Part shown: positions 2,087 through 24,988 of the stretch, piece after piece
Layout: the number at the start of each line of letters is the position of its first letter
Position numbering within the stretch: the first letter of the stretch is position 1
IMG/VR virus record: IMGVR_UViG_3300049215_000092
Coordinates: 1-29,783 of that record
Source: a virus
Direction: 5' to 3' (one strand)
DNA: 29,783 nucleotides
The notes under the pieces: generated by a model
What the model was told of the DNA's origin: nothing
What the model saw: the letters and a program-made list of their open reading frames with translations, nothing else
The model's database searches: none
Program-made: the position numbers and the translations under genes

Positions 2087-3301
2087 TCATGGAGAGAGCG
2101 AGAAGACAGCGAACAAGTTGGCTTGTTGCTGCCGGCGGTTCAGCGTCGGCCAGTCGATCTGCTGAGCCGGGAAGCCGTCGAAGCCCGACAGGGCATAGCA
2201 CTCGCTGCCGCGCTGTTTGCACATCTGATCGACAACGCGAGCATCGACGTAGAAACCGGCGATCGGCGGATTGCCCTTCCCGACCGGGCCGCCGTGAGCC
2301 TTGTCGCCCCATGAATTCAGAATGAACAATCCGGGACGCGAGCCGCCTACCATGCCGATGCCGGCCATGCAATGCGGCCAGACGCCGTTCGGAGCAATGA
2401 AGCCATCCTTGTCGCGTGTGCCGGGGTTGACCTGGTTGCGGCGCGTGCCGGGCTTATTGAAACCGGTGTTCGTTGCCATGATCAGCGTGTAACCCTGCGC
2501 GATCGCTTTGCGGCAATCATCCCAGGAATGCACCTGGCTGATATGTTGCACGACGTGTTTCTTCGCCTCGGATTGCAAGCTCGCCGGAACGCCGCTGTCG
2601 CCCCATTCCTGGACGCGGTGCGGATCAAAGCGAGAAAGGTCGATGCTCGGATATGGCCGCATGAGAAGGTTGCCGTAGTCGCGGGCCGCCTGCGCGACCC
2701 AACTCCCATTGCTGCCGTCCTCACCCTGCAACTGATTGTGACCGATATTGACCCGCGACTCGGCGTAGACCGATTCGACGGCGATCGGCTCCCAATCAGT
2801 CAGCGCCCCCTTGGCTTCCTGCAAGACGGCCGTGAGCGCGTCTTCCGCGTGCTTGGTCCCACAGCCGCAGCAAATGCCGGTGTCCGCCTGGTCGACGTTC
2901 GGATAGGGAGCGCTCGTCTTGGCCGGCCCGGAGTATTTGCTCCACGCCTGGCGGACATAATTCCACATGAACACATCGGTATCGGGAACATCAGCCTGGC
3001 CGGCGGGCGTCGCGGCGAAGCGCGGATATTTCAACGTCGAGACGAATGCCTCGCGAGCCGCTTCGTCCGGCCTCCAGCCCATGCCGTAGCCGCGAGTCGG
3101 CCACTCGGGAACCGGATCGGGAATTGGAATCGGCGCTGGTTGGGGCTGGCCCTTGAAGCCGCCGGCAGCCCAAACGAGCAAGCCGACAAGCGTCGGCAGC
3201 ATCGCCGCGATCACGTGAGTGAACCAAGGCTGCTTGTACCAAGGCAAAGCTGCCGGAGTTGGGGCTGGGATCGGAGTCGGTTGCGGCGTCGGATCGGCCA
3301 T
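2087..3301 (-). CDS. Membrane-anchored papain-like (C1-type) cysteine peptidase (404 aa)
   Basis: An N-terminal Pro-rich stretch (residues 4-20) leads to one hydrophobic helix (about 28-48, THVIAAMLPTLVGLLVWAAG) and another Pro-rich linker, so the rest is probably tethered to a membrane with the C-terminus outside. The C-terminal 260 residues carry a papain-like layout. Q138 lies six residues before C144 (oxyanion Gln and catalytic Cys, as Q19/C25 in papain), H310 is in VWPHCMAG, and N329 is in the signature NSWG. Spacing and order match clan CA family C1, but the Cys motif (TGICCGCG) differs from the usual GSCWAF. GGGAG lies 5 nt before the ATG. It lies between the secreted coiled-coil gene and a small gene. 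Phage peptidases of this kind are unusual; substrates could be envelope proteins of the host or virion proteins. Activity is inferred from motifs. Confidence 0.78.
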   Translation of the reverse strand: MADPTPQPTPIPAPTPAALPWYKQPWFTHVIAAMLPTLVGLLVWAAGGFKGQPQPAPIPIPDPVPEWPTRGYGMGWRPDEAAREAFVSTLKYPRFAATPAGQADVPDTDVFMWNYVRQAWSKYSGPAKTSAPYPNVDQADTGICCGCGTKHAEDALTAVLQEAKGALTDWEPIAVESVYAESRVNIGHNQLQGEDGSNGSWVAQAARDYGNLLMRPYPSIDLSRFDPHRVQEWGDSGVPASLQSEAKKHVVQHISQVHSWDDCRKAIAQGYTLIMATNTGFNKPGTRRNQVNPGTRDKDGFIAPNGVWPHCMAGIGMVGGSRPGLFILNSWGDKAHGGPVGKGNPPIAGFYVDARVVDQMCKQRGSECYALSGFDGFPAQQIDWPTLNRRQQQANLFAVFSLSP

Positions 3302-4424: not shown

Positions 4425-4577
4425 TCACTTGTCGGTTAAGCGCGATCGTCGAGCACACTTTTCGCATTCAAAAATCCAACGAACTTCACGCGGCCCGCGC
4501 ATCAGCGGGCGCGGCTTGAAATGACGCCTGTGCCAAACGCGGCAAAACAGAAATCCGGCAAACGCGATTAGTCTCAT
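4425..4577 (-). CDS. Small DUF1660-like zinc-ribbon protein (50 aa)
   Basis: This mini-gene begins at an ATG (4577) that overlaps the TGA of the glycosyltransferase gene (ATGA), a translational-coupling arrangement. The product MRLIAFAGFLFCRVWHRRHF...FECEKCARRSR has a Cys and His near the N-terminus (FCRVWHRRH) and a C-x2-C (CEKC) near the C-terminus. This is the layout of small prophage proteins of the DUF1660 type, where 'CRLFGHKW' pairs with a C-terminal CxRC to bind zinc. The match is by pattern only. The longer in-frame reading to 4742 overlaps the glycosyltransferase gene and is rejected. The role is unknown; such proteins are common small cargo in phage genomes. Confidence 0.6.
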   Translation of the reverse strand: MRLIAFAGFLFCRVWHRRHFKPRPLMRGPREVRWIFECEKCARRSRLTDK

Positions 4578-5335
4578 AGCGCCTGTCGAGTGAGCGCGGA
4601 ATAATCCTGCCGCCAGTGCGGACGAAGGATGAATCGCCCGGCCTGGCGAGGCTTCAGCGCCTCGGCTCGCCAGGCCGCTTCGCAATCCGAATTGCCGGAG
4701 AGATGATTCGGGCTGACTCCCCAGCGGTAAATGTACTGCCACTCAGCCGGCGGAATGCCGGCGGGGAAATGCTCGATCTGATGTCGGCAGTCCATCAATT
4801 TCGAGTCCATGATTGCATCCTGGTTTCCGCTCGCCCTCGGATAACCGCCGAAGCGACGCCAGGCGTCGCGCGTGAAGATGCTCGCGTGGTGGCGGACGCC
4901 GACATTATGTTTCCAGACTGGGGCCATGCCGTGCTGAAGGAACCAGACTTGGGGAGGCTTCCAGTAGTCGATCCCATCGCGCATCATGTAGAACGCCTGC
5001 ACTAACCGTTCCGGCAAACTAATGTCGTCGTCCTCCCACGGAACGAGAAGATCGCCGCGTGCCATTGCGACGAGCATGTTGAATTTGTCGCCGAGGCTCG
5101 GCAGCCGATAGGGCAAATTGACAATCCGGATCTGAAAATCAGGTCGCAACCGACCATCGATCACAACCTGGTCGAGAACCAGTTCCTGTGAAGGGCAATC
5201 ATTGAGGATGATCAGCTCGGCGTGCTCCATGCCCATGTACAAATTGGTTTGACGCACGAACGACTCGATCGCTTCCTCAAGCAACCACTGATAATCGGGA
5301 CAGCGGCCATAGGTGGGACAGAGACAGGAGATCAT
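4574..5335 (-). CDS. GT2-like (GT-A fold) glycosyltransferase (253 aa)
   Basis: The start is fixed at 5335: GGAGGTGA lies 7 nt upstream, and the ATG overlaps the TGA of the preceding glycosyltransferase-methyltransferase gene (ATGA). The product opens with a GT-A Rossmann-like strand (MISCLCPTYGR), followed by LIILNDCPSQ, where Asp usually contacts the nucleotide, and the metal-binding type acidic motif EDDD at residues 101-104 (LLVPWEDDDISLPERL). A predicted acceptor-side motif follows (FTRDAWRRFGGYP...NQDAIMDSKLM). The length is right for a minimal GT2 domain with no membrane segment, so it probably works in the cytoplasm on a nucleotide-sugar donor. Placed downstream of a second glycosyltransferase and the Thr-rich protein, it may glycosylate that protein. 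Donor and acceptor are unknown. Confidence 0.85.
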   Translation of the reverse strand: MISCLCPTYGRCPDYQWLLEEAIESFVRQTNLYMGMEHAELIILNDCPSQELVLDQVVIDGRLRPDFQIRIVNLPYRLPSLGDKFNMLVAMARGDLLVPWEDDDISLPERLVQAFYMMRDGIDYWKPPQVWFLQHGMAPVWKHNVGVRHHASIFTRDAWRRFGGYPRASGNQDAIMDSKLMDCRHQIEHFPAGIPPAEWQYIYRWGVSPNHLSGNSDCEAAWRAEALKPRQAGRFILRPHWRQDYSALTRQAL

Positions 5336-7197
5336 GCGGCAATCACCTCCAGCTCGACCTTCCCCCAACGCGGCGGATTGTCGGGGCATTCGCTCGACGC
5401 CCACGATGTTTTCTTGTCGACTGGGCAGCCGCACAGGCCGCACGTATCGTAGAAACGATTCGGGCAGAGCATGCACAGGTCCAGCCGCCCTTTCCACGTC
5501 TCATCATCGACGAGCCGCAGGCCATCCTTGGCGTGTTCGGCAAGCGCCTTGGTGAAGTTCAGAGCCCTGTAAAATGTTCCCGGCGGCTGCTTTTTGTCGC
5601 CGTCGTCGCGGGATAGGACCATCAGGCCGTTATTGTTGAGATCGTGACGAATCACGGTCCATTCGCGATTGGTTTGCAGGAACTGTCGGACTGCCGGCAG
5701 CAGCCCGGCCCCGCCGTCTTCGCCGCGCTCGCCGAAGATCACGGTGTCATGCAGGACAATCCACTTCTTGACCTTCGCGGCCGCGTTGCCGAGCTCGGCC
5801 GCGAGGTGCCCGGCCGTGTGCTTGGTGTCGATAAACAGCATGTCCGTCTCTTCGATCGGCACGGTTTGCGAGTCGCCGATACGGAACTCGAACTCGCAAC
5901 CGCCCTGCTTCTGTTTGAGAGCAGCCGCCTCGGCGGTCGCATTGAGGTCGTAACTGATCAGCCGCTTGGGTTGGCCGGCCAACAAAGCGACGGTCGAGAC
6001 GCCGCGACGAACGCCGAACTCGGTGACGTGATCACACTTGCTGGCCAACTCGCGAAGCGTCGGCACGTGCTCATTGATGTCGCCGGGCGTCTTGGCCGCC
6101 TGCTCGTACCACTGATCCAGAGAAAGCGAGTTCGCGGCAGCGCCGCCGCATGAGCCGCAGCCCTTCGGGGCCGGCGGACTCTCCGGCGGCGGGTCGCTCG
6201 CAATCAGAAACTTCCATTCGTCTTCGGTTAGGGGCGGCGGGTTGGCTTGCCGATTGCTTGGATCGATAACCCAAGCTTTGTTTTTTTCATCGTAAGTGGT
6301 TTTGTCCGGACGAAGAATATATCCCCGCGTCGGCGTCCCATCTTCATTCAGCCCCTCGACGAAATGCCGATGCACGCGATCGAGCGGCAAGCCAAGCTCG
6401 CGATGGCCGATGACATAATTGCGAACCTTGTTCCAGAGCGTCAGCGGATACTTGACGCCGTCCGGGCGGCCGAAGCGATGCACCCAACGGAATGCCGGCA
6501 AACAGAGATTGCGACCGCCGGCCCGGCGAATCTTCTCGTGGACGTACAACTCCTCGCCGCCGAAGCCGCGGAAGTTCGGATTGAACCCTGGCCAGGCCGC
6601 CTTGCGCACGGCGAAGGCCCCGAGCCCGCAGCCAGGAATTTCGAATGCGGTCGTATCAAGATGAGGCGAACGAGTTGTCCAAATCGTTTGGCCCGGTTCC
6701 AGCTTTGGGGGCGGATAGGTAACGATGTGATTGCCTCGTGAATCAGTGGCCCAGATGCCCCACATCTCGCCACGCCATACGTCCGCGAAGTGGGTCGCAT
6801 ATTGCTTCAAATCGTCGTAGAGCAGTGGCCCGCTCACGAGATCCTTGCTCTTGGGGTTCGCTTCGAAGAAGCTCCTTACTGCATCGATCGCTCCAGGCGG
6901 GAACAAGACGTGCGGATCAAAGCAAATCACGATCTCATTTTTGGCCTCGGCAATCGCTCGATCGCGCGGGACCGCCGTCCCGACCGGTGAGGCCAGCGGA
7001 ATGTATCTGGCCACATCCTTCATCCAGCTGACGACGTTCATTGAGTCGCGGCCGTGCAGGCTGGCGGGGTTGTTATCGACGACGACGATCTCGTCGCCGT
7101 CCTGGAAGTCGTGGAGCCGGATCGATTGGAGCGTCGGCCAGAGTCCGTAGAAATCGTCGAACACTGCACAGACGAAACTGATATTTCGCGCTGACAT
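5332..7197 (-). CDS. Glycosyltransferase-methyltransferase fusion with C-terminal Cys cluster (621 aa)
   Basis: The start at 7197 (MSARNISFVCAVFDDF) has AAGGGGA 8 nt upstream; the upstream extension overlaps the preceding gene. Residues 5-300 are GT2-like: a first strand SFVCAVF, EIVVVDNNP near 37-44, ICFDPH at 91-96 in the DxD place, a GGEELYVHEKIRRAGG block and KVRNYVIGHRELGLP. After a Pro-rich linker with a CGSCGG motif, residues 375-535 look like a class I SAM-dependent methyltransferase of the Methyltransf_24 type: TEFGVRRGVST (motif I), SYDLN with D417, FIDTKH with D457 and VLHDT. The tail (575-604) has six Cys in CMLC...CGLCGC...C, a zinc-ribbon tail seen at the ends of some phage proteins (DUF6171-like). 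The three-part fusion suggests sugar transfer and methylation of the same acceptor. The acceptor is not known. Confidence 0.85.
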   Translation of the reverse strand: MSARNISFVCAVFDDFYGLWPTLQSIRLHDFQDGDEIVVVDNNPASLHGRDSMNVVSWMKDVARYIPLASPVGTAVPRDRAIAEAKNEIVICFDPHVLFPPGAIDAVRSFFEANPKSKDLVSGPLLYDDLKQYATHFADVWRGEMWGIWATDSRGNHIVTYPPPKLEPGQTIWTTRSPHLDTTAFEIPGCGLGAFAVRKAAWPGFNPNFRGFGGEELYVHEKIRRAGGRNLCLPAFRWVHRFGRPDGVKYPLTLWNKVRNYVIGHRELGLPLDRVHRHFVEGLNEDGTPTRGYILRPDKTTYDEKNKAWVIDPSNRQANPPPLTEDEWKFLIASDPPPESPPAPKGCGSCGGAAANSLSLDQWYEQAAKTPGDINEHVPTLRELASKCDHVTEFGVRRGVSTVALLAGQPKRLISYDLNATAEAAALKQKQGGCEFEFRIGDSQTVPIEETDMLFIDTKHTAGHLAAELGNAAAKVKKWIVLHDTVIFGERGEDGGAGLLPAVRQFLQTNREWTVIRHDLNNNGLMVLSRDDGDKKQPPGTFYRALNFTKALAEHAKDGLRLVDDETWKGRLDLCMLCPNRFYDTCGLCGCPVDKKTSWASSECPDNPPRWGKVELEVIAA

Positions 7198-7213
7198 TCG
7201 GAAAATCCCCTTA

Positions 7214-9481
7214 TCACGAACAGGGAACATGGGTTGTGCTGGTACTGATCGACACACAGCCGCCGGTAAAGCCGGGCAGGCTCGAACAGGTATGAGCACA
7301 GCCGCCCGCACAGGTGCTACTATCGACAACCCAAACGTTCGAGACGCACTTCATTCCACAGAACCCGGAGCATGGCGCGGCCGTCGTCGTTGTGGTTGTC
7401 GTCGTCGTTGTCGTGGTGGTAGTCGTCGTTGTGGTGGTAGTCGTGGTCGTCGTCGTGCATTGACCCAGGCCGCCGGCACAGGTGCATGCCCAGCCGCGAG
7501 TCGAGCTGCCGCTGCAAGATTGGCCGATCAAGTTGCAGCCGTTGCAGCGGCAGCCGGAGTTGGCACAATTCGTATTCAGAATCCACACGCCGCCCGAACA
7601 TTTGATCGAGCATCCATCGGTAGTGCAATTGTTCGGAGCGCATGTCGTCGTCGTGCTCGTCGATGTAGTCGTGGTCGGGATCGGCGTTGTCGTCGTCGTG
7701 TTTTGGCATTGCGTGGCCGTCGTCTCGCATGAAGCGTCCTGACCATCAAAGGCCGGATAGAGGCAGTCGCAGTTCGGGCAATTGCGGGACTGGATCGCCC
7801 AGTAGGTTCCGTTCCAACTCCAGATGCACGTCCCGCTGCAATTCGGCGGTCCGCTGTCGGTCGTGGTCGTATTTTTGCTTTGGACGCACGGATAGGTTCC
7901 CGGCTGGCTCTGCGACGCGCAGACGCACTGGGGCAGCCCCGCATTGAAGGTGCAATTGCTGAAGACATTGACGACGGTGAAAACGCCATTCACGCCCAGA
8001 AGCTGCCAGACGCAAAATCCGCTGCACGGCGCTGGCGTGGTCGTTGTCGTGAGGATCACCCAATGGCAGGGAGTGATGTCCGTCGCGCAGGCCGAGCCGG
8101 CCTTCGAGGGCGGGTCGCACTGGCAGGGACCTGGTGCTCCCAATCCGCAGAGGATGCCGCAGCCGCCCGAGAGGAAGGTCCACGAACTCGAAATCGGATT
8201 GTAATACCACTTGCAGCTTCCACCGCAGACAGGCTGGCAGGTCGTGGTCGTGGTTGCCTGGCACGGCGTGTTGGCGGTCGAGCAATCGCCGGTGCAGGGA
8301 TCGCTGGGCGGCGCGCACGGGCAACTCGCGGCGCAGGGCTGGCTGGTCATCTGCCAGCCGACGCCGGGCAGGCAGATCCAGCTACAGCCGGCCGTGCAGC
8401 CGGGGCCTTGCGTCGTCGTCGTCGAGGTGGTGGTCGTGACTCCGGTCCAACATTGATCGAAGAAATACGAGTTGTAGACGTAGGTGCAGCCGCTATCGCA
8501 GCACGACGGATTGCCCGAGGGCTGGGCATAGCAGCCGCAGCCGGCGGTACAATTGCTCGTGACGAGTTGCCAACCGCTCTTGGTGCAGCGGAACTGGCAG
8601 GTATGACCGCACGGCGCGGGCGTAGTCGTGCTCGTCGTGGTTGTCGTTGTGCATTCGATCGGCGGGAAATAGACGCCGTAGATGCAATTGGTGTAGGTGC
8701 ATTCGCCATCGGTCGAGCCGCAGTATTGCGGCGAAGCGCAGGTGCAGGTTGGGGCCGGCGTCGTCGTGGTCGTGCTCGTCGTGCTCGTGCTGGTCGTGGT
8801 CGTGCCGCCGGCCGTCGTGGTCGTGCTGCTGCTCGTGGTCGTGGTCGGGCAGGCGCACGGCGGCTGAGTGGTGGTTGTCGACGAGCTTGTTGTCGTCGTG
8901 CTCGACGTGGTGGTAGAACTCGTCGTCGTGGAGCTCGTCGTCGTGGTCGTGGTCGCGGCCAGGCCGCAGGTGCTCGATACCTGCGTCCAGGTTTTTGCGC
9001 TCGCGCTCCAGGTCCATTTGCATTGCCCGGCGCAGGGCGGCGGCGTCGTCGTGGTCGAGGTCGTCGTCGAGGTTGTGCAGCTTGTCCCGCACGGCGTGCC
9101 CGTCCCAGGCAAGTCGACGATATAGATCGGCTTGCCATCCGCATGCTCGCCGCTGAGCCTGGCTGCGTACATTTGCGGAGTCAGGGCTTCCTTGCCCGGC
9201 CCGCGAGCCCAAGCGCAGCCGTAAGGCGTATTCCCGTCGATCGAGGCGTCATAGATTTCAACGAAGCAAGGATACAGATCGTCGGCGTCCGGGGCCGTCA
9301 ACCCATCGGTGACGCAAACATACTGCCAAACCGGCGGCATCCCGCCGCCTTGGCGGCGCTGGTTCGGAGCGCCGGATTGCTCGGTCCGCTCCAGGGCCGA
9401 GTTGAGGCGGTTGGCCGTCGCCGGGCCAATGATGCTCGCCGCGTTGAAATTCGGAACGACCATAATGAAAACGGGGGCCAT
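7214..9481 (-). CDS. Thr-tract/Cys-rich modular virion or adhesin protein (755 aa)
   Basis: The first 125 residues are an ordinary globular domain (MAPVFIMVVPNFNAASIIGP...YIVDLPG). The rest alternates about nine to ten Cys-rich modules with threonine/serine tracts. A typical module reads C-x2-x-C-x-W-x-W ... W-x(6-9)-C ... C-x-C, for example CAGQCKWTWS, CGGSCKWYYN, CSGTCIWSWN and CSGFCGMKC. The tracts reach 25 consecutive Thr near the C-terminus. Repeated small disulfide- or metal-stabilised units on stiff, mucin-like linkers suggest an elongated surface or receptor-binding protein. It lies in the distal tail gene region and directly before two glycosyltransferase genes, so O-glycosylation of the Thr tracts is plausible. 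There is no signal peptide, which favours a virion component over a secreted one. The ribosome site is weak (GGGGG 6 nt before ATG). I do not recognise a named family. Confidence 0.85.
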   Translation of the reverse strand: MAPVFIMVVPNFNAASIIGPATANRLNSALERTEQSGAPNQRRQGGGMPPVWQYVCVTDGLTAPDADDLYPCFVEIYDASIDGNTPYGCAWARGPGKEALTPQMYAARLSGEHADGKPIYIVDLPGTGTPCGTSCTTSTTTSTTTTPPPCAGQCKWTWSASAKTWTQVSSTCGLAATTTTTTSSTTTSSTTTSSTTTTSSSTTTTQPPCACPTTTTSSSTTTTAGGTTTTSTSTTSTTTTTPAPTCTCASPQYCGSTDGECTYTNCIYGVYFPPIECTTTTTTSTTTPAPCGHTCQFRCTKSGWQLVTSNCTAGCGCYAQPSGNPSCCDSGCTYVYNSYFFDQCWTGVTTTTSTTTTQGPGCTAGCSWICLPGVGWQMTSQPCAASCPCAPPSDPCTGDCSTANTPCQATTTTTCQPVCGGSCKWYYNPISSSWTFLSGGCGILCGLGAPGPCQCDPPSKAGSACATDITPCHWVILTTTTTPAPCSGFCVWQLLGVNGVFTVVNVFSNCTFNAGLPQCVCASQSQPGTYPCVQSKNTTTTDSGPPNCSGTCIWSWNGTYWAIQSRNCPNCDCLYPAFDGQDASCETTATQCQNTTTTTPIPTTTTSTSTTTTCAPNNCTTDGCSIKCSGGVWILNTNCANSGCRCNGCNLIGQSCSGSSTRGWACTCAGGLGQCTTTTTTTTTTTTTTTTTTTTTTTTTAAPCSGFCGMKCVSNVWVVDSSTCAGGCAHTCSSLPGFTGGCVSISTSTTHVPCS
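7382..7456 (-). repeat. 25-codon threonine tract (degenerate ACN triplet repeat)
   Basis: On the minus strand these 75 bases are 25 consecutive threonine codons that mix ACG, ACC, ACA and ACT. Shorter Thr/Ser tracts from the same gene lie at about 8759-8850 and 8868-8960. The mixed synonymous codons mean the tract is not a pure microsatellite, suggesting selection for the amino acids. Triplet arrays of this kind can still expand or contract by recombination. Confidence 0.9.
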
Positions 9482-9511: not shown

Positions 9512-10015
9512 TCACTGCGGGTCTTCGTTTAACACCAGGCGGCAGAATACGCCCTTGGCGATCGTGCCGCCGCCCGCCGTGGCACTGGTAATAGCCGCTT
9601 CGAGAATGTCGCCCGCGACGAGCGACGACGAGGTCAGGCCGGGATTGGCCTTCAAGGTGAAAGCCGGCGTGGTGTTGTCCAGGGTGAATGTGCCGGTCAG
9701 GATTGACGAGCCGTTTTTCTTCAGGTCGATCGTTACCGTGGCCCCGCCAACGTTGGCAGTGACGGCTCCGACCGAGAAATCCAGGATCGTGCCCGTCGCC
9801 CCATAGAGCGCGTGAACGATCTGCCGGCAGACGGCTGCCGTCACGGTCGAATCCTGAAACGCCCAATGCAGGTTGCGAACCTGTTGGACCTTGGTGCTCT
9901 TGATGCCGGCCGAGCCGGCGATCATGGCATCCGTCACCGAGCTTGCCGGCAAGGTGACCGTCTTGGCCGACAGGTTGCCGTCGACGTAGAGATCATCATC
10001 CAATCGATTTCCCAT
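9512..10015 (-). CDS. Probable virion/tail protein, beta-rich (167 aa)
   Basis: The product begins MGNRLDDDLYVDGNLSAKTVTLPASSVTDAMIAGSAGI, a pattern of short strands and turns ('dDlyVdGnLsakt') like that used in phage tail-spike and fibre collar segments. The rest is beta-rich (TVTIDLKKNGSSILTGTFTLDNTTPAFTLKANPG), resembling a small Ig-like or jelly-roll sandwich. AGGGA lies 7 nt before the ATG. It sits two genes after the tape measure and just before the Thr/Cys-rich protein, the place of baseplate or fibre components. There is no signal peptide or catalytic motif. Function as a structural tail or fibre-base protein is inferred from position and composition. Confidence 0.75.
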   Translation of the reverse strand: MGNRLDDDLYVDGNLSAKTVTLPASSVTDAMIAGSAGIKSTKVQQVRNLHWAFQDSTVTAAVCRQIVHALYGATGTILDFSVGAVTANVGGATVTIDLKKNGSSILTGTFTLDNTTPAFTLKANPGLTSSSLVAGDILEAAITSATAGGGTIAKGVFCRLVLNEDPQ

Positions 10016-10094: not shown

Positions 10095-11153
10095 TCAGGC
10101 TCCTGGCGGCGACGGGATCGCCAAGTCGTTCAAATCCGCAGCCGGGAAAACCCAGAAAGATTGATAGTACTTCGGGCTGCCCGGCTGCACGACATGGCCG
10201 GAACTGTCAAGCGGCTGGGGCTGCATCACGACGCCATGATTCGGACACAGAATCGCGATCCGCTTGACCGCGTTATTGGGATCGATCTGGTTATAGCCCT
10301 GGCTCAGGGCCAGGAATCGCCAGTCGATGAAGATCGGCAATGTCGGGTCGCTTTGATCCTGAACCGTAAAGCTGCCGTCTCGCGGCAAGGTCAAATCCTT
10401 GATCCAAAATTCGTAGCGCACTTTCGAATAGGCGAAGCCGTTCTCGATCTCGTCGGAACCAGTGATGCTGCGACAGAGAATGCAATACTGCAAATGCCCC
10501 CACATCGGAGCCGAGTTCATCCGACGCGAATAAGCATTCGCCTTTTTGGTGTCGAAAAACGGTTCATTGCGCGTGACGATGATCGAGAGCCCGGCCTCTT
10601 CGAACATATACGGCGGGTCGAATTTGTCGCCCGCCGTGTTCGTCATGGACTGCGAGCCCAAGATCCCATTGCCGGTCTGAAGATTGCGGAAATCGTGATC
10701 GAGCGCCCGCTGCCAGGTCCACTGCCCGTAATCATAATGGGGCGGCCGCGTCAGGGGATTTTGCGGCGAGTCCTTATTCTGCGAATTTGGATCTTGGCCG
10801 TTCTTCTTCAAGTCGCGATTGATCGCATCCCAAAATTTGCTCGTGTAGGTCGCCTTCAGAATCCAGGTAAACGGGTCGGTCGGATTTTCGCGCTCGGCGG
10901 TAATGCTGACAGCGAGCGCCCACTTGTCCTCGAAGCTGATGACTGCGGCCGGGCCGTTATCGGTCGGATAGACGCTGTATTCGACGTAGGGTTCCCATCG
11001 CTTGATCGGCGCGGCCAGAACGGCCTCGCCGGGGCCGTTAATCATGGAATCCGACCAGACGCGCCAAGCGCGGTAGTAACGGCGCTCGCCTTTTTCCGTT
11101 ACTTCGGCTTTGCGATTGCCCAGATCGATTTCGTCGATGCGAGTAAAGGTAAT
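10095..11153 (-). CDS. Probable distal tail protein (about 352 aa), apparently ATT start
   Basis: This gene follows the tape measure, the position of Dit-like or minor tail proteins, but I do not recognise its family. It contains YVEYSVYPTDNGPAAVISFEDKWALAVSI, a Cys pair (YCILC), and many aromatic strand-like stretches. The first ATG (11045) has no ribosome site and lies inside coding-like sequence: upstream the frame reads ITFTRIDEIDLGNRKAEV then EKGERRYYRAWRVWSDS up to the tape measure TGA in the same frame. No ATG, GTG or TTG occurs there. CGGAG precedes an ATT codon at 11153 by 6 nt, so ATT is my preferred start. Alternatives are a CTT two codons earlier, readthrough of the TGA, or a sequencing error. 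Confidence 0.7.
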   Translation of the reverse strand: MTFTRIDEIDLGNRKAEVTEKGERRYYRAWRVWSDSMINGPGEAVLAAPIKRWEPYVEYSVYPTDNGPAAVISFEDKWALAVSITAERENPTDPFTWILKATYTSKFWDAINRDLKKNGQDPNSQNKDSPQNPLTRPPHYDYGQWTWQRALDHDFRNLQTGNGILGSQSMTNTAGDKFDPPYMFEEAGLSIIVTRNEPFFDTKKANAYSRRMNSAPMWGHLQYCILCRSITGSDEIENGFAYSKVRYEFWIKDLTLPRDGSFTVQDQSDPTLPIFIDWRFLALSQGYNQIDPNNAVKRIAILCPNHGVVMQPQPLDSSGHVVQPGSPKYYQSFWVFPAADLNDLAIPSPPGA

Positions 11154-11165
11154 GGCAAGCTCCGA

Positions 11166-12734
11166 TCAAAGGACGCCGAGGTTTTCCAGCGCCCGAGCCG
11201 TGTCCTTCGTGTTCTGCGCAGTCTCGTCTTGCTTGGCCTTAATCGCATCGAGCAGCGACTTCATTTGCGCCTGGATGTCGATCGATTTGTTCCGCGCGTC
11301 GCTTTCGTTCTGCGCGATCGTCGAGAAGGCGCTGGCGCTGCCGAACTCGGCGAGCTCCGGGCCTTTGGCCGGTGGCGGGGCGAGATCCTTGTATTGATCG
11401 ATGATGGACGCCAGGTTGCCATTGAAGACATCGCCGCTCAGTCCCAAATGCTGCTTGGCGTCTTTGAGATCGCTGATCTGTTTTTGAAACTTGTCGAGCG
11501 GCCCCATCGCCTTCTCGATAAACGGCTTCGAGAAGGTGTCTTTGACCGCGTCCATCGCCTTCTTGAACTTGTCCGGCGAAATATCCTTGATGGCGGCGTT
11601 AACCTTCTTGATGTCCTCTTCCATCTTGCCCCACGGATTGGCCTTGTCGATGATCTGGTCGACGGCCGCGATCCGCTGCTTTTGGTCGTTCATCTCCTTC
11701 GCTTGCTTCGCCGCCTCGGCGATCTGCGCTTGCTCTTTCTTGGCGTCCTCGATCGCCTGTTTGCGCTTGTTGGCCTGGTTGGCCAATTCCATCTCAGCCC
11801 GCGAGCTGGCGCTGGCCCCGGACCCCCAGTCGAAGCTGACCAAATCCTGGAACATGTATTTGAGTTGCAGGAGCGTACTGCCGCGCTCCATCGCGCCGCC
11901 GATCGAATCCTGGCCGTCGTCGGCGAGGTCGTTCGCGAGCGATTGCATGGTCGGCGAGACCTTCAGCGCAATCGTCCGCCACATCGCCTCCCAGCCCGAA
12001 TCGAGCTGCTTGATCGATTGCTCCGTTTGCTTGACGATCTCGACATCTTCGGTGCTGAGCAATTTGCCTTGCCGCTTGCCGCGATCAATTGCGGCTCGAA
12101 TGCCTTCCTCTCCCTTGTTGATCAGCGGCATGGCCTCGGCGGCGCTGCGGCCCATGAGCTTCATGGCGTCCGCGTTTCGCTCGGCGGAGTTTTTTACCTT
12201 GGCCAGAGCGTCGGCGACTTTGATGAATTGCTCGTCGGTCGAGAGCTTTGACAGGGCCCCGAGATTCAGGCCAAGCTGATTGAAGACTTCCGCGCCTTCG
12301 CCGCCTTCCATTGCCGCCTTTCCAATGCCTTCGCTGACATGGAACAAGGCCGTATTGAGCATGTCGGCTTTGCCGCCGGATGCATAAAGCAAGCCGCTGT
12401 AGCCCTCGACGCTCGCGCCAACTCCTTTGGCAGCTTTGCCGACTTCCAGGATTTCCTTTTGCGTCTCGCGGATCTTGGAAATAAAGCTACCCGCCAGGGC
12501 GATGCCGCTCTGGAGCGCCGGGCCAATCATCGGGATCGAGCCGACGAGATTCTCGGCCGCTCCCTTTAATTGCTGGAATGGATCGGCACCGCCGACGATC
12601 GCGCCAAACGCGGCTCGCATGCCGGCGGTCTGATTCCCGAGGCTATTGAGTTTGGAAGACAGCCTTGAAATGGCCGACTCAGCCTGCTTGCTGTCGCCGC
12701 TGATCACCAGCTGAAGATGCTTCGCCGTCGCCAT
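11166..12734 (-). CDS. Tail tape measure protein (522 aa)
   Basis: The tape measure protein sets tail length and is ejected into the host during infection. The start at 12734 (MATAKHLQLVISGDSKQAE) has AAAGGG upstream, and the opening is the usual 'lxlvisgdskqaesai' of small tape measures. Residues 20-45 are helical. A Gly/Ala-rich hydrophobic stretch follows (about 50-85, GADPFQQLKGAAENLVGSIPMIGPALQSGIALAGSFIS), then long Ala/Lys/Glu-rich helices, including AELELANQANKRKQAIEDAKKE-like coiled coil near 330-360. Position after the G/GT chaperone genes, overlapping the end of GT by 56 bp, confirms the identity. At roughly 0.15 nm per residue (known for lambda-like tails) it would predict a tail near 80 nm. 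Confidence 0.9.
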   Translation of the reverse strand: MATAKHLQLVISGDSKQAESAISRLSSKLNSLGNQTAGMRAAFGAIVGGADPFQQLKGAAENLVGSIPMIGPALQSGIALAGSFISKIRETQKEILEVGKAAKGVGASVEGYSGLLYASGGKADMLNTALFHVSEGIGKAAMEGGEGAEVFNQLGLNLGALSKLSTDEQFIKVADALAKVKNSAERNADAMKLMGRSAAEAMPLINKGEEGIRAAIDRGKRQGKLLSTEDVEIVKQTEQSIKQLDSGWEAMWRTIALKVSPTMQSLANDLADDGQDSIGGAMERGSTLLQLKYMFQDLVSFDWGSGASASSRAEMELANQANKRKQAIEDAKKEQAQIAEAAKQAKEMNDQKQRIAAVDQIIDKANPWGKMEEDIKKVNAAIKDISPDKFKKAMDAVKDTFSKPFIEKAMGPLDKFQKQISDLKDAKQHLGLSGDVFNGNLASIIDQYKDLAPPPAKGPELAEFGSASAFSTIAQNESDARNKSIDIQAQMKSLLDAIKAKQDETAQNTKDTARALENLGVL

Positions 12735-13430
12735 GCCACGCCCTTTGAGTATCAACCAAGGCCATCAGTTTGCCGCGAAGACGATTCACGTCCGGCTTCT
12801 CCGGATCGCTGTAGGGCATGAAGTCTCGCGGCTTGTACCAGTCGCCCGACAACTTCGCGCCTTGCGCCATCGCTGTCAGCCGCCCGGCGTTGGCCGCCGC
12901 CGCCGAGATCGTGCCCGACCGCAAATCTTCGCGATCGTTGCCCCACGGATCGATCGCCCACAGCGCCCGCCACTTCGACAACTCGCGTGAGTCGATGGAC
13001 ACGAGCAGCTCCTCGACCGTGCGGCCGAGGCGAGCGGCTAGCTCGAAGAGGAACCTTGTCCAGGTTCCTCGGGCAAGTTTTTTTGGTCGGCGCTCGCTTC
13101 CTTCGAAGACATCCCGTTCAATCGGAGAGCGGCTTCGAAGACACGCTGGAGCGCCGTCCATGATTTCGCGGCCAGGTCCTTCACTTCCTTGGCCGAGAAC
13201 AGCTGGTCGCCCTTGTCGTCGACCATGCTCGCAGCGCTCAGAATCGTCCGCACGTCGTTTTGAATGACTGGCGACCCTTCCTTGTCGCGCTCCAGCGCCG
13301 TCTCGTAATCGTTCCTGGCCTTGCCTGACATGCAACGAACTCGGACCACGCCACCCCATTCGGGGACCGGAACGTCCTCGAACGGCAGATCATTGGCCTG
13401 GCGAATTTGTTCGGCCGTAAGCAATACCAT
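12679..13430 (-). CDS. Tail assembly chaperone, frameshift product (GT type, about 250 aa)
   Basis: A -1 frameshift at the slippery heptamer A AAA AAC (13077-13083) joins the first 118 codons of the G-type gene to a second frame running to 12679. The downstream part includes TRFLFELAARLGRTVEELLVSIDSRELSKWRALWAIDPWGNDREDLRSG and YKPRDFMPY. This matches the gpT-like segment of siphophage chaperones ('isSrELseWmayyrleP.G..R.D...dFmp'). The long and short forms bind the tape measure and recruit tail tube subunits during assembly; neither is in the mature tail. The end of the frame overlaps the tape measure start. The downstream frame has no well-placed start of its own, supporting frameshifting. 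Confidence 0.88.
13038..13430 (-). CDS. Tail assembly chaperone, short form (G type, 130 aa)
   Basis: The short product of the G/GT pair reads MVLLTAEQIRQANDLPFEDVPVPEWGGVVRVRCMSGKARNDYETAL and continues with helices. 'qi..a.dlp.edv.vPeWg' is the usual beginning of such chaperones in HK97-like phages. It terminates at 13038, about 12 codons after the slippery site, with a Ser-rich tail (GQGSSSS). AGGGA lies 7 nt before the ATG. The gene sits between the tail tube gene and tape measure gene, the conserved place of this pair. Confidence 0.9.
   Translation of the reverse strand: MVLLTAEQIRQANDLPFEDVPVPEWGGVVRVRCMSGKARNDYETALERDKEGSPVIQNDVRTILSAASMVDDKGDQLFSAKEVKDLAAKSWTALQRVFEAALRLNGMSSKEASADQKNLPEEPGQGSSSS
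13048..13083 (-). promoter_or_regulatory. Programmed -1 ribosomal frameshift signal (slippery site plus stem-loop)
   Basis: The minus strand reads A AAA AAC at 13083-13077 in the zero frame, preceded by CAA, then a 6-nt spacer (TTGCCC), then a perfect 9-bp hairpin. The stem arms are GAGGAACCT (13070-13062) and AGGTTCCTC (13056-13048) around the loop GGACA. The slippery site, spacer length and stimulatory stem-loop all fit the known rules for -1 frameshifting, and the -1 frame opens into the gpT-like sequence. Confidence 0.9.
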
Positions 13431-18204: not shown

Positions 18205-19656
18205 TCAATGCTGCAAGTATTTGACCGGCGCGGTGCCAGCCGTCAGCAAGTTGCCGTCTTCGCGAACCAGGGCGACAAAGCCGTCCTGATCCGTGTCGCG
18301 GTAACGCTCTTCGAGCCGGTACAGGCGGAGCTTGTTGACGCGACGAATCTTGTACTTCGGAAGCTGTCCGAAGAGCAGCGTCTTCTTGCCGCTCGTCGTC
18401 GCACTGTCCATGTCCTGATTGATCGTGAGCGGATACTTGAACAGCCGATCCGGGGCTCCGTCCTGCATACCGTCCTGCCAGAGGTACCGGCCCATGCCGT
18501 CCTTCAGCTTGCGGAGCGTGAGCAGGATCGTATCGTGCATCATGAAACCGGCATCGTTCGTGCGGTAAGCCGGATCGATGCTGTGAATCAGGCCCAGGAT
18601 GTCGTCGGGGAAAATCGCCGTGCTGGAGATGGCGCTGAACGAACTCGCCGCCGTGATGATGCCCTTGGCCGTCGAAGCCCCGCTGCCGACCGTGTATTTC
18701 GTGTTGGTAATACGACCGAGGCGAATGCCCATCATTTCGCCGAGCACTTCCGCCAGATCGACCTCGGCGTCTTCGAGCAGTTCGTAATTGACCAGGATCG
18801 GCTTGCTCGAAAACTTGTAAGCGTCCCAGAACACCTTGGCCCACGTCGGATCGACGGAGACCTGGCCTGGCGGCATCGCCGCCCCGCCTTCGCCAAGCTG
18901 AACGCCGGTATTAGTGGTGTCGTCGGCAGTCGGCCACGACATGCGCTCGCCGCTCTTGGTCACGATCGTTTCGGCGACCTGCCTCATGCCGCCGTACCAG
19001 AGCATGTTGACTTCGAGATTTTTGATCAACGTTTCTGGCGGGATCAGATAGCCGCCGGCCGTGCCGGGAGTCGTGCCGAGGTTGGCCTGAAAATCCATCA
19101 TGCGATCGAAGGCGAGATCGCGATGCGTGCTGCGAGCGATGCGCTGAAGCTTCTTGGTGACCTTGGCCCCAGGAAGCTTCAGATCGAGCCGGGGCCGGTT
19201 GGGATTGAGGCCGACGATCTTGCAGGCTTCGTCGTGCTCTTCGCTGATGTCGTGGCCATTGTTGACGCGGAGCCACGCCTGGAGAGCCAGGTTGAATTGT
19301 TCCGGCGTCGCCGTCTGAGCGCCGTCGCCGCCACCACGGCGGAAAGACTTCTTGCCGTTGTCGCCGCGAAAATCCTCACGGCCGATTCTGCCATCATCGC
19401 TGTCGCGGCGGGCGTCCATCTCTTTCTCGACGGTCTCGATCGCGTCGAGCCGGTCGATACGATCCTTCAAGAGATCGACTTCGCCGCGAATCGCAGTCCC
19501 GTCTGGACGAACGCCGCCCATGATTTTTTCCCAGGCCGAATTCTCCTCGGCGTTCATGGGCCTGTTTTCGGCCTCGGCCTTTTCAAAGATTTCCTTGCGG
19601 GCCTTGGTGACCAGGGCGCGACGTTGTTCTCGAAGAGCTTTCGCGGTTACAGACAT
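18205..19656 (-). CDS. Major capsid protein, HK97 fold (483 aa)
   Basis: The N-terminal 110 residues are charged and helical (MSVTAKALREQRRALVTKARKEIFEKAEAE), the delta/scaffold domain that the maturation protease removes. The mature region (from about 115) shows HK97-type features: TTPGTAGGYLIPPETLIKNLE (N-arm), the beta-hinge/E-loop WPTADDTTNTGVQLGEGGAAMPPGQVSVDPTWAKVFWDAYKFSSKPILVNYELLEDAEVDLAEVL, the P-domain helix IRLGRITNTKYTVGSG and the A-domain GFMMHDTILLTLRKLKDGMGRYLWQDG. GAGGG lies just upstream of ATG. It follows the protease gene and precedes head-to-tail genes. Confidence 0.93.
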   Translation of the reverse strand: MSVTAKALREQRRALVTKARKEIFEKAEAENRPMNAEENSAWEKIMGGVRPDGTAIRGEVDLLKDRIDRLDAIETVEKEMDARRDSDDGRIGREDFRGDNGKKSFRRGGGDGAQTATPEQFNLALQAWLRVNNGHDISEEHDEACKIVGLNPNRPRLDLKLPGAKVTKKLQRIARSTHRDLAFDRMMDFQANLGTTPGTAGGYLIPPETLIKNLEVNMLWYGGMRQVAETIVTKSGERMSWPTADDTTNTGVQLGEGGAAMPPGQVSVDPTWAKVFWDAYKFSSKPILVNYELLEDAEVDLAEVLGEMMGIRLGRITNTKYTVGSGASTAKGIITAASSFSAISSTAIFPDDILGLIHSIDPAYRTNDAGFMMHDTILLTLRKLKDGMGRYLWQDGMQDGAPDRLFKYPLTINQDMDSATTSGKKTLLFGQLPKYKIRRVNKLRLYRLEERYRDTDQDGFVALVREDGNLLTAGTAPVKYLQH

Positions 19657-22715: not shown

Positions 22716-24536
22716 TCACACCCAGGATATTCTCGGCGCGTCGTTGTTCGGCATCAGCATCGCCCGCGACAGCGCCATGATCGCGGCGACAATTCCGTCA
22801 ATCTTCTTCACGTCGTGAGGCTTCGGCTTAACCGGTCGAATGTTCGAGTTCACGTCGATCCGTACCTTCACGTGGCCGGCCTGCCAATTCATGATCGGAT
22901 GATCGTTGTGATGGAGTTTCCTCGCCAAAATCAACCGCTCGAAATCCTTGCATGGAGCGGCAAATTCCATGATGGTCTGCTTGAAGATGAATCGCTCGAC
23001 GCCGGTTCCTTCCTCGATCTGTTTGCCGGCATCGTCGACGACGCCTTGCTCCAAATTCTGCGTCGTCTCCTCGGCATAGGTCTTGTCGTAAGCAAGCTGC
23101 CGAATCAGAAACTTCTGAGCGAGTTTCCGGAACTTTGCCCGAATGTAGCCGTAGTCGATCACGTTGCCTGGCGTCAGTTCGAGATAACCGTCCTTGGCCC
23201 ATTGCTGAAACGCCGCCAGGTGCCCCTTCTCCTTGGCGACTTCTTCGGGCAACCAAAAATACGAGAGGATTCGAAACGTCTCCGGCTCGTCCCACGGAAA
23301 GACCAGGACGAGCGATGACATGTCCTGAGTCTTTGAGAGATCGAGCCCGGCACAACATTCCCGGCCCTCCAGGTCCGCCTCGGTGAAATCCCGGCGGCAT
23401 GATTGCCAGTCGCCAGGCTTCAGCCAAGGCGACGCCGATCGTTGCCAGATATTCAGCCGGTACATCATGAATTCGAGCAGCGCCGGCAGGCTCCGCTTCG
23501 AATTCTCGTAGTCCCGCAAATACTCTTCCGGCTCGACCGTATGGCCCATCGCCGGGTTGGCCATCCGGCCCCACTTCAGCGGATCGGCGGCGAGCTCCGC
23601 GTCGGTCAGCGTTTGCGGAGCTGCGTAAACCGCCGTGAACAATTGCTCGTCGGTCGCCTCGCCGGCCTCGACAGCGACGGCATGATCAAACCGCTCCTTG
23701 CCGTAGCCGTCCGGAGTGTTTCCGGCCGTCGATACCTCAATCTGGAGCGGCTCGCTGCGACTGATGCCGGCCCGGCTGATGCGGCTGACAAACTCGCGAT
23801 CGACGACGTGCGTTTCGTCGATCAGTACCGAGCCGTTCAGCCCTTCTTTGCTTTGCTGGTTCCGTTCGTTCGAGCTGCTCAGCGGCTCCATGAAGCTGCG
23901 CGTCGGATGGTGTGTGATCCGGTAAGTCGATCGATTGAGGCTGCAATCCTCGCTAAGCTCGTCGGACTGATCGAGCATTTGCGCCGCGTGCTCGCCCGCG
24001 ATCTTCCGGGCCTGCTGTCCATCCTTGGCGGCCAGGTACACCTTCTGACCAGGCTCGCCATCGCCGCAAAGAAGATAAAGGCCCCACGCCGCCTCGGTCG
24101 GTGATTTCTTGTTCTTCTTCGCGACCCAGATCGACGCCTGGCGGAAGCGCCTGATCCATCGGTCCCATCGCGTCGAAAACCTGACCCAGCCAAACAGCCG
24201 CATCGTACACTCATACTGCCAATCGATCGGATGTCCGGCCGCGACGCATTCCAGGTGGCGGTTCGCTCGCTCGGTGCAGACCGCAATCCCTTCATCATCC
24301 CAGCCGTCAAGCTCCGCCGCCGCCGGCAACCCGTATGTCCCGCATTGATGGCAGCCGTGCAGGATGAGCGGCTGGCCGGCTTGCTCGCCCTCATACAGGC
24401 GGCAATGATGCTCGATCCAAAAAACGGTCCGAGCGCCGCGTTTAACGTTAAAGCGGCAGCCATTGGCCGCCGCTCGCTCATCCCCGATGTTGCGAGACCA
24501 TTGACGTGTCATGGCCTCGGCGTCGACATCAACCAT
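22716..24536 (-). CDS. terL: Terminase large subunit (606 aa)
   Basis: The packaging motor ATPase and nuclease, Terminase_1/HK97 gp2 type. The ATG at 24536 overlaps the small subunit stop (TAATG). Motifs: Walker A-like AKKNKKS around 139-145, Walker B VLIDETH around 237-243, coupling motif STAGN near 269, nuclease AGLDLSKTQD near 396-405 and the C-terminal DGIVAAIMALSRAM. Before the motor there is an unusual Cys/His-rich insert of about 45 residues (from HGCHQCGTYG near 61 to HLECVAAGHPIDWQYECTMRLFGW), where family members normally have a short '..L.pWQ.f...lfGw'. A zinc-binding insert is an inference. Confidence 0.95.
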   Translation of the reverse strand: MVDVDAEAMTRQWSRNIGDERAAANGCRFNVKRGARTVFWIEHHCRLYEGEQAGQPLILHGCHQCGTYGLPAAAELDGWDDEGIAVCTERANRHLECVAAGHPIDWQYECTMRLFGWVRFSTRWDRWIRRFRQASIWVAKKNKKSPTEAAWGLYLLCGDGEPGQKVYLAAKDGQQARKIAGEHAAQMLDQSDELSEDCSLNRSTYRITHHPTRSFMEPLSSSNERNQQSKEGLNGSVLIDETHVVDREFVSRISRAGISRSEPLQIEVSTAGNTPDGYGKERFDHAVAVEAGEATDEQLFTAVYAAPQTLTDAELAADPLKWGRMANPAMGHTVEPEEYLRDYENSKRSLPALLEFMMYRLNIWQRSASPWLKPGDWQSCRRDFTEADLEGRECCAGLDLSKTQDMSSLVLVFPWDEPETFRILSYFWLPEEVAKEKGHLAAFQQWAKDGYLELTPGNVIDYGYIRAKFRKLAQKFLIRQLAYDKTYAEETTQNLEQGVVDDAGKQIEEGTGVERFIFKQTIMEFAAPCKDFERLILARKLHHNDHPIMNWQAGHVKVRIDVNSNIRPVKPKPHDVKKIDGIVAAIMALSRAMLMPNNDAPRISWV

Positions 24537-24988
24537 TACCACTCATCCTGGTTCCTGTCACGACCCATCGCCCTTTGTTTCTTCGGCTGGTCGGATACGC
24601 GGAGTTTCGCTCTGTCAGAAGGAGTGAGCCCGAATCTCGCGGCGATCTTGTCGAACTTGTCCGAAGCGATTGCGCAACCAGTCATCGCTTGAACGAGTCG
24701 CCGATCCTCGTTTTTCATTTTCTCGATCATGCGCGAGAATCTCTGGTACTTCGCCCACCATTCGCACATGAGCGCCAATTGTGGGCCGTCAATAGCTTTC
24801 GCGATACCTTTCGCGACTAATTCGGGTACGTGCTTTTTCCAGAATTTGAGGGCGTCACCCTTCATGTCCGGCGGCGGCGAAGGAACGCCTTCGAAGACAG
24901 CTTGCGGCAAAGGTCCGTCGCGATCCTCGCGGTAAGTGCCATCCAGGATTTTGGCCTCAATTGGCTTACGAGGCCGGCCCATAACCAT
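24536..24988 (-). CDS. terS: Terminase small subunit, P27 family (150 aa)
   Basis: Binds phage DNA at the packaging site and hands it to the large subunit. MVMGRPRKPIEAKILDGTYREDRDGPLPQ is the typical P27 start ('mGRprkp...k.l.Gt.R'), followed by PPPDMKGDALKFWKKHVPELVAKGIAKAIDGPQLALMCEWWAKYQRF and a second helix pair. GGAG lies 11 nt before the first ATG; an ATG two codons on is possible. The stop overlaps the large-subunit ATG. The 105 bp before it (24989-25093) holds a G-rich/T-run stretch on the minus strand that could contain the cos site, unproven. Confidence 0.93.
   Translation of the reverse strand: MVMGRPRKPIEAKILDGTYREDRDGPLPQAVFEGVPSPPPDMKGDALKFWKKHVPELVAKGIAKAIDGPQLALMCEWWAKYQRFSRMIEKMKNEDRRLVQAMTGCAIASDKFDKIAARFGLTPSDRAKLRVSDQPKKQRAMGRDRNQDEW

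Follow-up and report, generated by a model that had tools for sequence, protein, structure and literature searches.

A candidate O-glycosylation cassette with a Thr- and Cys-rich putative acceptor in the tail region of an uncultivated phage

Mucin-type O-glycosylation is initiated by the GT27 polypeptide N-acetylgalactosamine (GalNAc)-transferases, and an alternation of Cys-rich or folded domains with Thr-rich tracts is familiar from eukaryotic mucins and from bacterial glycoproteins with Pro/Thr linkers, such as the cellulosome scaffoldins. Phage glycosylation is known chiefly for DNA, for host O-antigen and, recently, for the capsids and tail tubes of mycobacteriophages. In mycobacteriophages such as Che8, the virion glycans are reported to sit at the C-terminal ends of capsid and tail tube subunits (PMC12619734). 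Here we describe a three-gene block in a 29,783-bp IMG/VR virus record (IMGVR_UViG_3300049215_000092; "the window" denotes this whole stretch of analysed DNA). The block encodes a Thr- and Cys-rich protein of 755 residues (the Thr/Cys protein, 7214..9481), a fusion of a glycosyltransferase domain to a methyltransferase-like domain (GT1-MT, 621 residues from its ATG, 5332..7197) and a second glycosyltransferase of the GT-A type (GT2b, 253 residues, 4574..5335); these genes, the parts within them and the siphovirus-like module described below lie on the minus strand. We consider it probable that the three genes form an O-glycosylation cassette of the phage, with the Thr/Cys protein as its dedicated acceptor.

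A preliminary description of this DNA had pointed to the same three open reading frames as a candidate phage glycosylation system, and both their positions and their junctions were given correctly. The Thr/Cys gene ends in TGA and is followed, after 16 bp that include an AAGGGGA ribosome site, by the ATG of GT1-MT at 7197, while GT1-MT ends in GCATGA and shares a 4-base ATGA overlap (5335-5332) with GT2b, preceded by a GGAGG site. The true starts are most likely these ATG codons at 7197 and 5335, the listed TTG 7329 and GTG 5497 being mechanical. The block (9481-4574) is placed after the tail genes of a siphovirus-like module, so that the phage encodes its glycosyltransferases among or close to structural genes, as is expected of phage virion glycosylation.

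Searches with GT1, and independently with GT2b, returned 36 viral loci, some of them overlapping, which were followed up by hidden Markov model (HMM) and open reading frame analysis. A Thr/Cys protein followed by GT1 was found in ~25 distinct loci (21 viral contigs and four bacterial or archaeal bins), mostly at a spacing of 2-43 bp, and GT2b is also present in ~20 of them. The preliminary description had made its proposal depend on the block being kept together in relatives, which is what these loci reveal. Several phages share the order tape measure, ~300-residue gene, ~165-residue gene, Thr/Cys protein, GT1-MT and GT2b, with Thr/Cys proteins of 528-1301 residues, fusions of ~590-690 residues and often a separate methyltransferase or sulfotransferase between GT1-MT and GT2b. 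Moreover, the distances of GT1 and GT2b are correlated across 15 loci at 30-83% identity (Mantel r 0.71, p 0.0002). Thr/Cys proteins were also retrieved without the enzymes, through the split first module described below or through unselected Thr tracts. In seven of eight testable contigs GT1 then followed immediately or lay within one run of genes with the Thr/Cys protein, three of these seven being already known from the GT2b search; the eighth was L207, discussed below, and L361, a contig that ends inside its Thr/Cys gene, was left out of this count. One locus (L362:2635-6389) has two tandem Thr/Cys proteins and one more gene before GT1 and GT2b.

Thr accounts for 170 residues of the putative acceptor and Cys for 77. 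The longest uninterrupted stretch of Thr (25 residues, 7382..7456) compares with 11 or fewer when the protein is shuffled 2000 times, and a 12-codon Thr pattern has 14 matches in the window against an expectation of 0. The tracts draw on all four Thr codons (ACG, ACC, ACA and ACT), and identical adjacent codons are not in excess (36% observed vs 41% expected). The tracts therefore look maintained by selection on the protein and not through slippage of a DNA repeat. An N-terminal domain of ~130 residues is followed by Cys modules linked by Thr tracts, and Thr/Ser-rich tracts alternate with Cys-rich domains as in a mucin-like layout.

The modules, which the preliminary description had recognized as Cys-rich units joined by Thr tracts, hold up as a set of homologous units: iterated HMM analysis recovers 69 of them in 15 proteins, six in the window protein, to which inspection by eye adds a seventh and a Thr-split first module. 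Each comprises 45-60 residues of the form CxGxCxWxW..W....C..CxC..P...(C)..TxC, and a protein carries 2-11 copies. The first module (approximately 8672..9040, delimited from the sequence) is divided by Thr/Ser tracts within the loop that follows the third Cys. Modules matched by the HMM follow at 8474..8617 (independent E-value 2e-7), 8258..8404 (3e-13), 8063..8233 (5e-13) and 7865..8032 (2e-8), with a C-terminal one at 7217..7378 (1e-6), and a degenerate copy at 7457..7642, which the HMM did not detect, was discerned by eye in the sequence. The 48-residue module at 7703..7846 was used for structure prediction and yielded three strands with a predicted local distance difference test (pLDDT) score of 92. 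The first module is Thr-split in most phages of the family (also in L014, L018, L023, L024, L026 and L032; unsplit in L013 and L015), and the insertion of a tract into its loop suggests that the tracts lie at the surface. No significant match to the module was found in Pfam or among PDB sequences, and the best Foldseek E-value of its model in the PDB was 6.7, a result that, for a domain of 48 residues, does not in itself establish a new fold. A tick complement inhibitor (best VIA Z 2.9) is likely a chance match, and a RING-like Pfam match on the Thr/Cys protein fell below the cut-off and was put down to a chance effect of the Cys residues.

The enzyme that would initiate glycosylation is the GT1 domain (6343..7197). 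Pfam recognizes GT2 and Methyltransf_24 in the fusion and GT2 in the last gene of the block, and the best generic GT2 profile matches to GT1 span only its N-terminal 110-120 residues. With a GT1-MT model built from a 22-sequence alignment (mean pLDDT 82), the best 50 Foldseek matches in the PDB are all polypeptide GalNAc-transferases, with E-values down to 1e-13, and VIA-align places 29 GT27 entries at Z 20.7-24.3 across ~260 residues (model positions 1-339), ahead of K4 chondroitin polymerase as the next family (Z 18.9 over 219 residues). A 31-sequence GT1 profile likewise matches GALNT10 over the catalytic domain (E 3e-5), aligning DSH with DSH, FGGEE with WGGEQ, and the Mn-ligand His. In the window these motifs are D94-x-H96, FGGEE (212-216) and H240, and D94, H96, G213, G214, E215 and H240 are invariant among the 31 sequences, with the W of the WGGEN motif replaced by F. 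The ricin-type lectin domain that is a C-terminal feature of GT27 had no Pfam match in 22 GT1 members; because this domain is missing and identity is ~15%, we term GT1 GT27-like, not a member of GT27. Transmembrane helices were found in neither GT1 nor GT2b, by contrast with the GtrB-type serotype-conversion enzymes, which have them.

GT1 also occurs without the methyltransferase in very different phages, again behind genes with Thr/Ser tracts: Thr-tract genes precede it in L003, L007, L147, L150 and L190, and genes with Ser/Thr/Pro tails in L005, L011 and L012. When GT1 relatives were retrieved irrespective of Thr content, a preceding gene carried a Thr or Ser/Thr tract in eight of 11 viral loci. 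Conversely, GT1 was present in 7/120 viral stretches selected for Thr tracts vs 0/120 selected for poly-Ala (one-sided p ~0.007). The association extends to bacteria. In 73 loci fetched through GT1 alone and divided into one-kb locus-bins, Thr/Ser tracts fall in 19/185 bins within 3 kb upstream of GT1 vs 1/507 at 5-10 kb. Bacterial GT1 frequently occurs as a fusion with an HprK-related kinase A or a PqqD-like domain (L058:9020-10834, L052:8888-10849, L097:9293-11437), and it adjoins small proteins that have a twin-arginine translocation (Tat) signal and end in Thr tracts (L046:8564-8905 and L050:6576-6890; also L064, L073, L087, L093 and L103). Judged by its genes, this bacterial set (HPr-rel-A) looks like an uncharacterised system for Thr-tract glycosylation. 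As a separate observation, viral Thr-tract proteins (L118-L237) were followed by a gene of VanY or peptidoglycan-binding endolysin-like type about as frequently (5/63 matches) as by one for a glycosyltransferase (4/63).

These associations bear directly on whether the tracts are substrates at all. They might be plain flexible linkers or filler, with the glycosyltransferases acting on a different component of the virion, such as the tail tube, the capsid or a fibre of another kind. Viral Thr-tract linkers are commonly found without neighbouring glycosyltransferases, and the subunit C termini reported to carry the mycobacteriophage glycans (PMC12619734) offer a precedent for such targets. We nonetheless consider this unlikely, as GT1 is repeatedly paired with Thr- or Ser/Thr-rich proteins, both in phages and beside the bacterial Tat-signal proteins with Thr tracts, and its fold is of the peptide-acceptor type.

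A role at the host cell surface, in lysogenic conversion or superinfection exclusion, would make the proximity to a Thr-rich tail protein accidental. Phages do carry glycosyltransferases for serotype conversion (PMC12619734), and the profile matches of GT2b include heparosan synthase, chondroitin synthase and SpsA. The odds seem to us rather long, given that ~25 loci have the enzymes encoded within the tail module, immediately after the Thr/Cys gene, that the enzymes lack membrane helices and have no flippase-like gene that was noticed beside them, and that Thr/Ser tracts accompany GT1 relatives in unrelated contexts. Glycosylation or hypermodification of phage DNA, for which virus-encoded glycosyltransferases are known (PMC12619734), is very improbable here, as no base-hypermodification genes were noticed beside the block, which lies in a tail module, has a Thr-tract protein as its conserved neighbour and encodes a fold nearest to polypeptide transferases.

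The candidate cassette probably also encodes the enzymes that elaborate the glycan. GT2b, whose matches include other GT2 enzymes besides the synthases just mentioned, is best read as a putative glycan extender. The methyltransferase-like domain of the fusion (5581..6120; Pfam Methyltransf_24, 4.5e-6) resembles the O-methyltransferase 8c9v (VIA-align Z 17.4) and keeps motif I for S-adenosylmethionine (SAM) in the window, where EFGVRRGVS fits ExGxxxGxS. Several phages in which this motif is degenerate have a separate Methyltransf_24 gene. Sulfotransferases within the cassettes of two relatives (Stf0 at L014:7230-7991 and Sulfotransfer_2 at L023:6825-7433) suggest that some of the glycans may be sulfated. 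Glycan finishing seems to be conserved as a theme, not through one single enzyme. The fusion ends in a Cys-rich segment (5377..5526; phrog_13558 match, 5.3e-7), at which DUF6171 is found in nine of 22 relatives; both phrog_13558 and DUF6171 are of unknown function.

Several observations count against a dedicated O-glycosylation cassette, or narrow it. SAM motif I is lost in most fused relatives, which are without both of its glycines, and almost all of 15 other aligned fusions are without one or both. The methyl capping of sugars put forward in the preliminary description is thus plausible in the window, where the motif is intact, but is not general. L207, a 31.9-kb record, encodes Cys-module/Thr proteins (4610-8541) with no GT1 and is either a counterexample or an incomplete genome. 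No Thr/Ser tract occurs in the fetched flanks of the GT1 relatives L008-L010. An adjacent glycosyltransferase is rare for viral Thr-tract proteins, at the 4/63 next-gene matches given above, and a Thr tract alone therefore does not imply glycosylation; a general rule that such a tract has a glycosyltransferase neighbour is ruled out by the same count. GT-A folds are widely shared, and a GT27-like fold is no proof of a peptide acceptor. Finally, the tail location is read from gene order: synteny suggests that the Thr/Cys protein is part of the virion tail, and L014, the one case in which a Thr/Cys stalk is joined to what may be a tail protein, offers a weak match of 39 residues (hhalign probability 85%). 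Set against these points, the conservation of the block, the GT27-like fold and motifs, and the Thr/Ser-tract neighbours of GT1 relatives support the O-glycosylation of the Thr tracts, and we regard the interpretation overall as partly supported.

A scheme consistent with these findings would be as follows. The Thr/Cys protein would be made as a late gene product of the tail region. GT1, as a soluble cytosolic GT-A enzyme of GT27-like design, would place a first sugar, perhaps GalNAc or another N-acetylhexosamine, on Thr hydroxyls of the tracts. GT2b would lengthen the sugar attached by GT1, and methyltransferases, joined in some relatives by sulfotransferases, would finish the glycan. The glycosylated protein might then join the tail tip as a stiff, extended and protease-resistant brush or stalk, on which the Cys modules would be presented to the host surface or masked. 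We infer every step from sugar transfer onward, including the modified residues, the sugars and their linkage, the action of GT2b on the same protein, the presence of the product in the virion and its biological role; the genes, their homology and conserved order, the GT27-like fold and motifs, the association with Thr/Ser tracts and the lack of membrane helices in the enzymes were established by computation.

Elsewhere in the window, the module includes a terminase (22716-24542), a major head protein (18205-19656) and a tape measure protein (11166..12755; PHROGs tail tape measure match, 5e-25). After the tape measure come a 316-residue gene (10095..11045), assigned by position and found in the same order in L017-L020, and a 167-residue gene directly upstream of the Thr/Cys gene (9512..10015), also ordered as in relatives. 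Beyond the block, the gene at 2087-3301 encodes a protein with papain-like motifs (LFILNSWG), and that at 634-1833 encodes one whose CPGGFCPNCPTGRC segment resembles a segment in L207; neither had a Pfam match. Full-length fused relatives in genomes come mostly from Planctomycetota bins (Schlesneria, Thermogutta and Pirellulales), one being a phage-like block within a 478-kb Pirellulales contig (L042), and the host of the window virus is likely a member of the Planctomycetota. The preliminary description had entertained altered adsorption and concealment from antibodies as possible roles, but a host that bears antibodies is not implied, because the likely hosts are Planctomycetota.

For isolate phages, 50,697 GenBank phage records yielded nothing related to the fusion or to two other GT1 proteins, and in the open-licence literature we found no paper that deals with glycosyltransferases accompanying Thr-rich tail proteins of phages, or with phage homologues of GALNT. 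If the proposed function is correct, a virus of bacteria would possess a mucin-type system in which an acceptor built from Cys beads and Thr tracts is served by a GT27-like initiating enzyme, an extending one and, optionally, methyl- or sulfotransferases. This would offer a defined enzyme-acceptor pair open to testing, make Thr O-glycosyltransferases available from a simple bacterial source and help to trace the origin of polypeptide GalNAc-transferases. A broader idea, which we advance tentatively and would not yet favor, is that GT1 is the founding member of a branch of polypeptide O-glycosyltransferases in prokaryotes and viruses. This branch would be related to the GALNT enzymes of animal mucins and devoted to homopolymeric Thr/Ser tracts, and it would serve phages for mucin-like tail brushes and bacteria for Tat-signal proteins with Thr tracts via HprK/PqqD. 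On this view, mucin-type initiation would reach further back than the eukaryotes and extend far beyond them.

Compared with known systems, the nearest fold to GT1, by a clear margin, is that of the GT27 polypeptide GalNAc-transferases (the GALNT family and Toxoplasma GalNAc-T3), with which it has the DxH, GGE and His motifs in common, likewise ordered, as well as, through its neighbours, an association with Thr/Ser-rich putative acceptors. Unlike these enzymes, GT1 is phage-encoded, has neither a ricin-type lectin domain nor a signal or membrane anchor, and continues into a methyltransferase-like domain and a Cys-rich tail, at an identity of only ~15%; its sugar donor and its acceptor are here predictions. 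With the mycobacteriophages the window has in common phage-encoded glycosyltransferases that here would decorate structural proteins, and the Che8 glycosyltransferase Q855A2 is among the BFVD structure matches (rank 16, E 9e-9). The window system differs in its dedicated Thr/Cys candidate acceptor from the tail region and its GT27-like initiator. The Thr/Cys protein recalls mucins and scaffoldins in layout, but it is viral, its Cys module is without a match in Pfam or PDB sequences, and its glycosylation is predicted. The HPr-rel-A / PqqD peptide system (TIGR04352, TIGR04353) has a homologous GT1 domain beside Thr-tract proteins; in contrast to the phage cassette, it is chromosomal, with GT1 fused to an HprK-like kinase domain and small Tat-signal neighbours that have no Cys modules.

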